Positions 18,541 through 20,485 of a stretch of 64,000 nucleotides of DNA are shown in pieces (positions within the stretch are counted from its first letter, which is position 1; the number at the start of each line of letters is the position of its first letter). The notes beneath the pieces were generated by a model. It was not told where the DNA came from and did not search any database. It was given only the letters and a program-made list of their open reading frames with translations. Source of the DNA: Candidatus Endolissoclinum faulkneri L5 (GTDB lineage: Bacteria > Pseudomonadota > Alphaproteobacteria > Thalassobaculales > Thalassobaculaceae); NCBI RefSeq assembly GCF_000510265.1, contig NZ_CP006745.1:703654-767653 (forward strand), read 5' to 3'. The position numbers were made by a program, and so were the translations under genes.

Positions 18541-18858
18541 TAAAAAGCACGAGCCTTCTGTTGCTAGGCGGCTCGCAAGCCTCACGTTTTAGGCAAAAAT
18601 CCAAAACGAATTAGTTAGAGGAAGCCGAGCCGCATCACGCAGCCAGGCGAGCCTCAAAATAGTTGTCGTTCGCAACTAGTATGAAAGCCCGATAACGGTG
18701 GAACAATACCGAGCAAAAAGTGACCCTTTATTACGCACGTCGACTCTATTTCGCCCCCATTAAAAACCTGCTATCCATAATATAGATACAACTCATGGTG
18801 GAGGCGCCGGGTACCGCCCCCGGTTCCGCTGCGCTTATTCCGAGCACCATTTATCGCC
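18541..18858 (-). ncRNA. ssrA: Two-piece (circularly permuted) tmRNA
   Basis: tmRNA rescues stalled ribosomes and adds a degradation tag. On the minus strand the acceptor piece comes first. It runs from about 18858 to 18796 and ends in CCTCCACCA, with the CCA encoded at 18796-18798. After a spacer of about 37 nt the coding piece starts at 18758 with GGGGGCGAAATAGAGTCGAC. GGGGGCG pairs with CGCCTCC of the acceptor piece (one G-U) to form the tRNA-like stem. The tag frame runs from a GCG resume codon at 18673 to TGA at 18635 and encodes ANDNYFEARLAA. This permuted order is the known alphaproteobacterial arrangement. The outer ends (about 18541 and 18858) are approximate. The GC-rich block stands out from its AT-rich surroundings. 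sspB follows directly. Confidence 0.93.
18635..18673 (-). other. tmRNA tag reading frame
   Basis: This is the mRNA-like part of the tmRNA coding piece: GCG resume codon, 12 codons for ANDNYFEARLAA, then TGA. The first residues, ANDN, are the family's SspB contact region, and the final LAA is the usual ClpX recognition end. The middle (YFEAR) is unlike tags I know from close relatives. Confidence 0.88.
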
Positions 18859-19239
18859 ATAGTCGAACGTTAAGATCTGACGAACAATAATGTAGTCTTT
18901 GTTAAAGATTATTAAAGAGGTATCAAAAAAGACTACATTATAAATATTTTTTCAAGTAAAAATAATCCTGAATTGCATTTTTATTCAAAAGATTTTTATT
19001 GTAAATTTAATAATTTAAAAAAATGAAATGTTGATTAATCTCCACAATAAAACAGGCAAGCATTTTAGTTATCATGCTTTGTTTGAGCTATGAACTTACT
19101 CCGATCGTTCTAGTAGGGTTGTTAATAAAAACGAAAGATTAGAAAAATTACTATAGAATTTGCTATTCATCGCCCATAACGAATGAAATTACTGAGTTTA
19201 CAAGCAGACAAAACCAATGAATTTAGGCGTTAAATTTCG

Positions 19240-19826: not shown

Positions 19827-19860
19827 ATGAAACCTAGATACTAATGAAACCTAGATACTA
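19827..19860. repeat. Exact 17-nt tandem duplication
   Basis: The unit 19827-19843 is repeated identically at 19844-19860, about 120 bp before folA. Confidence 0.9.
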
Positions 19861-19975
19861 ATAGAGAAGAAAGTAAAGCAATATTTTCTTGTTTTTACCA
19901 GTCAATAGACTTCATTTTTATGACCAATCAAATAAACTAGCACGCTAGTTATTTGATTAAATCTATGAGGATAAA

Positions 19976-20485
19976 ATCACTAAAATTACTATCATTGCGG
20001 CAATGGCTGACAACATGGTAATCGGTCGTAGTAATGCTGGGTTACCTTGGTCAATACCTAAGGATCTTGCTCGTTTTAAACGTCTTACACTGGGTCACAG
20101 CATATTAATGGGTCGCCGTACCTGGGAGACAATTGGCTACCCTCTGCCCCTTCGACGATCAATAGTTTTAACTCGTGATATCAACTGGGTTGCAAATGGA
20201 GCATATCGAGTAAAAGATTTGGATACTGCCATCGCAGTATGTAGTGAAGAAAAGGAAATATTTATCATTGGCGGAAGCGAAATCTTTGCTTTAACTATTC
20301 CTTTGGCTGATTCTTTATCTCTTACTTTTATACATTCACAGGCGTGTGGTGATGTTAAATTTCCAAAGATTAATTGGTTTGCTTGGAGCGAAATCTGGAG
20401 AGAAAATCATGTAGCTGAAGATAGTCGACCGGCATTTACTTTTACTACTTATGTGCGCGCCCAGGTACGATACTACAATCGTTAA
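19976..20485 (+). CDS. folA: Dihydrofolate reductase, apparent AUC start
   Basis: Dihydrofolate reductase uses NADPH to regenerate tetrahydrofolate for one-carbon metabolism. Family landmarks are MADNMVIGRSNAGLPW, LARFKRLTLGHSILMGRRTW, RRSIVLTRD and the cofactor glycines in FIIGGSEIFAL. The first ATG (20003) would drop the first beta strand, which normally reads roughly M-I-S-L-I-A-A and lines the active site. Upstream in the same frame the DNA encodes ITKITIIAAM, an excellent first strand, but with no ATG, GTG or TTG before a TAA at 19958. A GAGG ribosome site (19967-19970) sits 5 nt before an ATC codon at 19976, suggesting that an ancestral ATG became ATC, or an ATT start (19985). With the ATC start the protein has 169 residues, normal for the family. 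It may be poorly translated or on the way to inactivation. The family is certain and the start unusual. Confidence 0.85.
   Translation: MTKITIIAAMADNMVIGRSNAGLPWSIPKDLARFKRLTLGHSILMGRRTWETIGYPLPLRRSIVLTRDINWVANGAYRVKDLDTAIAVCSEEKEIFIIGGSEIFALTIPLADSLSLTFIHSQACGDVKFPKINWFAWSEIWRENHVAEDSRPAFTFTTYVRAQVRYYNR

Follow-up and report, generated by a model that had tools for sequence, protein, structure and literature searches.

A conserved AUC codon as the probable start of folA in the symbiont Candidatus Endolissoclinum faulkneri

The folA gene of the tunicate symbiont Ca. Endolissoclinum faulkneri L5, which encodes a type I dihydrofolate reductase (DHFR), is very probably translated from an AUC codon, located at positions 19976–19978 of the window (the whole 64,000-nucleotide stretch of contig NZ_CP006745.1 analysed here), as judged from comparative sequence evidence. 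The resulting protein would comprise 169 amino acids (19976–20485, forward strand, as for all folA features below). At least four further genes of this genome seem to start with AUA, AUC or AUU (collectively AUH), namely infC, folC, rsfS and a phosphopantetheinyl transferase gene. AUH starts as such are already known (infC, pcnB and ccpN); what looks new is their use in folA, folC, rsfS and the transferase gene, and their occurrence in the E. faulkneri lineage.

Results

A folA frame with AUC at Shine–Dalgarno distance

The folA frame contains no ATG, GTG, TTG or CTG between an in-frame TAA (19958–19960), which closes it upstream, and the ATG at 20003–20005. From the TAA onward it reads ATC TAT GAG GAT AAA ATC (19976) ACT AAA ATT ACT ATC ATT GCG GCA ATG (20003), with a Shine–Dalgarno site, GAGG (19967–19970), 5 nt 5' of the proposed AUC. 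An earlier note on this DNA had described a frame open back to the TAA and devoid of any enzyme-preserving ATG, GTG or TTG, which is correct to the base, as well as the GAGG 5 nt before an ATC, which we confirm and find conserved in the sister strain. Because AUH codons also encode isoleucine, the identity of the codon is by itself weak evidence for a start, and the case for AUH starts rests instead on Shine–Dalgarno distance, the absence of other starts and alignment to ATG in relatives.

Sister strain L2 (NC_019566.1; 72% protein identity), separated from L5 by 6–31 million years according to the divergence of the hosts (PMC3851785), has the same ATC, GAGG, spacing and in-frame upstream TAA. 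The 22-nt leader TGATTAAATYTATGAGGATAAA (19954–19975) immediately 5' of the ATC is identical at 21 of 22 positions (P ~9e-8 against background), whereas further upstream the identity is 38–45% per block and 41% overall; no Rfam element was found at the leader. Across the nine codons from the ATC to the ATG at 20003, the amino acids are identical in the two strains, with only two synonymous changes. This conservation is set in a genome, published at 1.51 Mb for L5, in which intergenic DNA is highly degraded, pseudogenes are few and mismatch repair has been lost (PMC3851785).

In the four genus mates with genomes of free-living size (G001–G004), a gapless alignment places an ATG at the position of the symbiont ATC (MADLTLVAALADN in G001 versus ITKITIIAAMADN), and elsewhere in the family folA has an ATG or another canonical start available, so that the AUC is a derived state of the symbiont lineage. 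Thus folA resembles other AUH-start genes in having AUH at Shine–Dalgarno distance, with no protein-preserving ATG, GTG or TTG, and in retaining both elements in a relative as diverged as L2; the free-living mates have ATG instead.

The FolA protein is intact

The AUC-start protein matches PF00186 with 167.8 bits (gathering cut-off 25) over profile positions 1–159. Profile position 1 aligns to residue 3, whereas use of the ATG at 20003 would make position 8 the first, and the codons from 19982 onward (K-I-T-I-I-A-A) fit the first DHFR strand. The AF2 model has a pLDDT of 92, with a strand at E3–11. The invariant residues W25, D30, R60, G99, G100 and T117, which we take to be the equivalents of W22, D27, R57, G95-G96 and T113 of Escherichia coli, are retained, so that catalysis and ligand binding are represented by their usual residues. 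Overall, the protein agrees with type I FolA enzymes in its whole profile and active site, and differs from them in its start codon and in the PLPGR segment (PLPLR/PLPFR). At the conserved RPLPGR motif (20138–20158), L5 has YPLPLR and L2 has HPLPFR.

The dN/dS ratio of folA between L5 and L2 is 0.28, which points clearly to purifying selection. At the same time, this value is the second highest among 32 gene pairs of the window, and the pN/pS of 0.35 ranks 181 of 195 in a wider sample (upper 7%); this place among the faster-evolving genes, together with the PLPGR substitutions, leaves room for a weak relaxation of constraint. The earlier note had offered either an AUC or AUU start, after the AUU of infC, or a newly damaged folA, and had suggested estimating dN/dS and looking in sister strains for an ATG at 19976. 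ATC is found there in L2, and the ratio indicates purifying selection; the first half of that proposal, in its AUC form, is therefore strongly supported and new damage is contradicted. Since the ATC is common to both strains and the gene is under purifying selection, the base is real and old, and the gene has been kept.

Alternative readings of the folA start

A start at the ATG at 20003, giving a functional shortened DHFR of 160 amino acids, is unlikely. This is the first in-frame ATG, is kept in L2 and would be picked by an annotation pipeline; the free-living mates have Leu or Val at this position, and the Met is therefore new in the symbiont. However, the codon specifies residue 10, inside beta strand A, and according to the model initiation there would remove residues 1–9, including seven of the nine strand residues (3–9 of E3–11) and, among these, the invariant A9. 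No GAGG- or AGGA-like site precedes this ATG, whereas the upstream Shine–Dalgarno site is conserved and the nine upstream codons are conserved as coding sequence. Even less probable is a decaying pseudogene without any start, a reading that the reduced genome with its lost repair genes (PMC3851785) and the relatively fast evolution of folA might invite. The frame is intact in both strains after 6–31 million years, with the dN/dS given above, whereas pseudogenes of this genome bear many frameshifts and stops (PMC3851785), and the ribosome site has been kept while intergenic DNA has nearly all diverged beyond resemblance.

The leader also harbours an out-of-frame ATG at 19965, which overlaps the Shine–Dalgarno site and opens 18 codons to a TAA (19965–20021) in L5, with the frame open in L2 as well. 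A -1 slip on the AAAA run at 19973–19976 would join this frame exactly to that of folA (M-R-I-K-I-T-K...), and both the ATG and the run are kept in the two strains, yet such an arrangement is highly improbable: the ATG lacks a Shine–Dalgarno site, whereas the GAGG is correctly placed for the ATC, and it is to the ATC that the ancestral ATG aligns. In addition, reading by eye revealed no canonical X XXY YYZ heptamer around 19965–19990, and no strong RNA structure lies near the proposed slip (z of -1.6 in L5 and -0.9 in L2). Finally, the whole case turns on a single base, 19978, in one assembly, but an assembly or sequencing error is hardly credible given that the separately sequenced L2 genome has the same base.

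Proposed initiation at AUC and comparison with known systems

Under the favoured AUC reading, the GAGG would set the codon at 19976 in the P site, where initiator fMet-tRNA with its CAU anticodon would pair with the first two bases, and FolA would begin with formylmethionine (M-T-K-I-T-I-I-A-A-M-A-D...). The ancestral ATG would have become ATC before the L2/L5 split and would have been functional since. Initiation at AUH is as a rule inefficient, and initiation factor IF3 discriminates against it; FolA is therefore probably made at a low level, by analogy with the products of infC, folC and rsfS, which seem to be similarly restrained in this clade. We infer initiation at AUC, the low yield and a role for the IF3 level from these considerations, and the AUC may represent either selected dosage control or tolerated drift. 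The C-terminal domain of IF3 is intact. A changed initiator tRNA was considered as the cause of AUH starts and rejected: L5 carries an initiator-type tRNA-Met(CAT) gene, CAGGCTCATAACCTG, which looks ordinary for alphaproteobacteria. A search for the initiator-tRNA pattern with three G-C pairs gave no match in L5 or in the free-living mates.

AUH initiation is known for infC and pcnB (PMC9410913). The folA case shares with E. coli infC, which encodes IF3 and whose AUU start serves IF3 autocontrol, the AUH codon, a good Shine–Dalgarno context and the absence of an alternative start. By contrast, folA is a metabolic gene whose AUC is derived in the symbiont and which IF3 may or may not control. 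E. coli pcnB (AUU) is, like folA, an AUH-start gene other than that of IF3, and differs from it in gene and codon. In Staphylococcus aureus, the starts of infC (AUA), ccpN (AUA), cvfC1 (AUU) and citZ (AUA) have been mapped and lower translation (PMC13009471). These genes have good Shine–Dalgarno sites, as does folA, and the cvfC1 and ccpN starts are conserved among relatives; they were proved by ribosome profiling and reporters, whereas the folA start is proposed from sequence comparison.

Further genes with AUH starts

Our screen for AUH starts covered the window and 39 other stretches, about 55% of L5, against L2, followed by checks in the free-living mates, and yielded three genes besides infC; the gene count is a minimum owing to this coverage. 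Many raw candidates were discarded because they were antisense open reading frames, ran into an upstream gene or belonged to a conserved 5' leader that precedes a credible ATG or TTG (mreB, gyrA, trcR and others). The infC parallel drawn in the earlier note proved apt, in that infC has no AUG start in this clade: CCT ATC GCC AGA follows AGGAGGTAA in the four free-living mates, and both symbionts have ACT ATA GCT AGA.

For folC, a GAGGAT site stands 6 nt before an ATA in G001 and G003, G004 has AGGGAG ACGACC ATA, G002 has an additional ATG two codons before the ATA, and an in-frame ATA is present in L5 and L2. The corresponding codon is ATC in genera g3 and g5 and ATT in g2, whereas folC has canonical starts in the other genera of the family and in nearly all of the other class members that were read, with one or so ambiguous. 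Across four genera, the spacing between a GAGGAT-like site and the apparent ATA, ATC or ATT start is thus constant (stretches L092-L095, L107, L110-L111, L113-L116, L120-L121), and a literature search of PMC found no publication on an AUA-start folC. In rsfS (ribosome silencing factor, TIGR00090), GGAGG precedes an ATA by 7 nt in L5; L2 shares this ATA, and the free-living mates have AGGAGTTCGACC ATA (loci L136:15346-15711, minus strand, and L197-L199). In the phosphopantetheinyl transferase gene (PF01648; L061:15864-16577, plus strand, L099 and L100), free-living G003 has ATG, L5 ATA and L2 ATT in a gapless alignment of 27 residues; the enzyme might conceivably serve the patellazole pathway.

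From these comparisons, infC, folC and rsfS look like ancestral AUH-start genes, and the transferase start appears to have changed from ATG to ATA or ATT in the symbiont. The apparent presence of such companion genes in the genome also speaks for the AUC start of folA. Among these starts the third base drifts (A, C or T) but the first two remain AU, which is what initiation with a CAU anticodon would allow. The transferase, with codons differing between strains, fits drift in a tolerant system, and the folC and rsfS starts, shared with free-living relatives, are in line with selection. A broader, speculative model, which we rate as unlikely, is that AUH starts serve regulation throughout this alphaproteobacterial family, with folC, rsfS, infC and, in the symbiont, folA tuned jointly through IF3-dependent rejection of AUA, AUC and AUU. 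If this were true, the capacity for initiation would be tied both to ribosome silencing and to the synthesis of folate, the source of the formyl group on initiator tRNA. More generally, gene finders do not call AUC and AUA starts; enzymes that the cell needs are then annotated as shortened or defective, and a reduced genome is mistaken for one in decay. The present strain pair, with its dated divergence and conserved AUC, together with folC starting at AUA, AUC or AUU in four genera, provides natural test cases for how far near-cognate starts keep bacterial expression low and whether IF3 links AUH genes.

Folate and genomic context

The earlier note had tied folA to an apparent loss of thyA and a change in folate demand, a link that does not hold up, as none of the six genomes of the genus, including the four of free-living size, carries thyA (PF00303). 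Neither ThyA nor the usual ThyX motif was seen in these six genomes, each of which encodes a diverged Thy1-domain protein. This protein, of 430–480 amino acids with a partial QRHR motif (stretches L032-L037), was the only one in the genus to resemble a thymidylate synthase. If a thymidylate synthase leaves no dihydrofolate behind, the demand for DHFR could be lower and a weak folA start tolerable. Since folP and folC are present, DHFR retains a role and a route to its substrate.

Two further observations concern the DNA upstream of folA: a 17-nt unit, GAAACCTAGATACTAAT, is tandemly duplicated in the intergenic region before the gene (19829–19862), and a two-piece (permuted) alphaproteobacterial tmRNA is located on the minus strand at 18546–18920, between an SspB-like open reading frame and folA.
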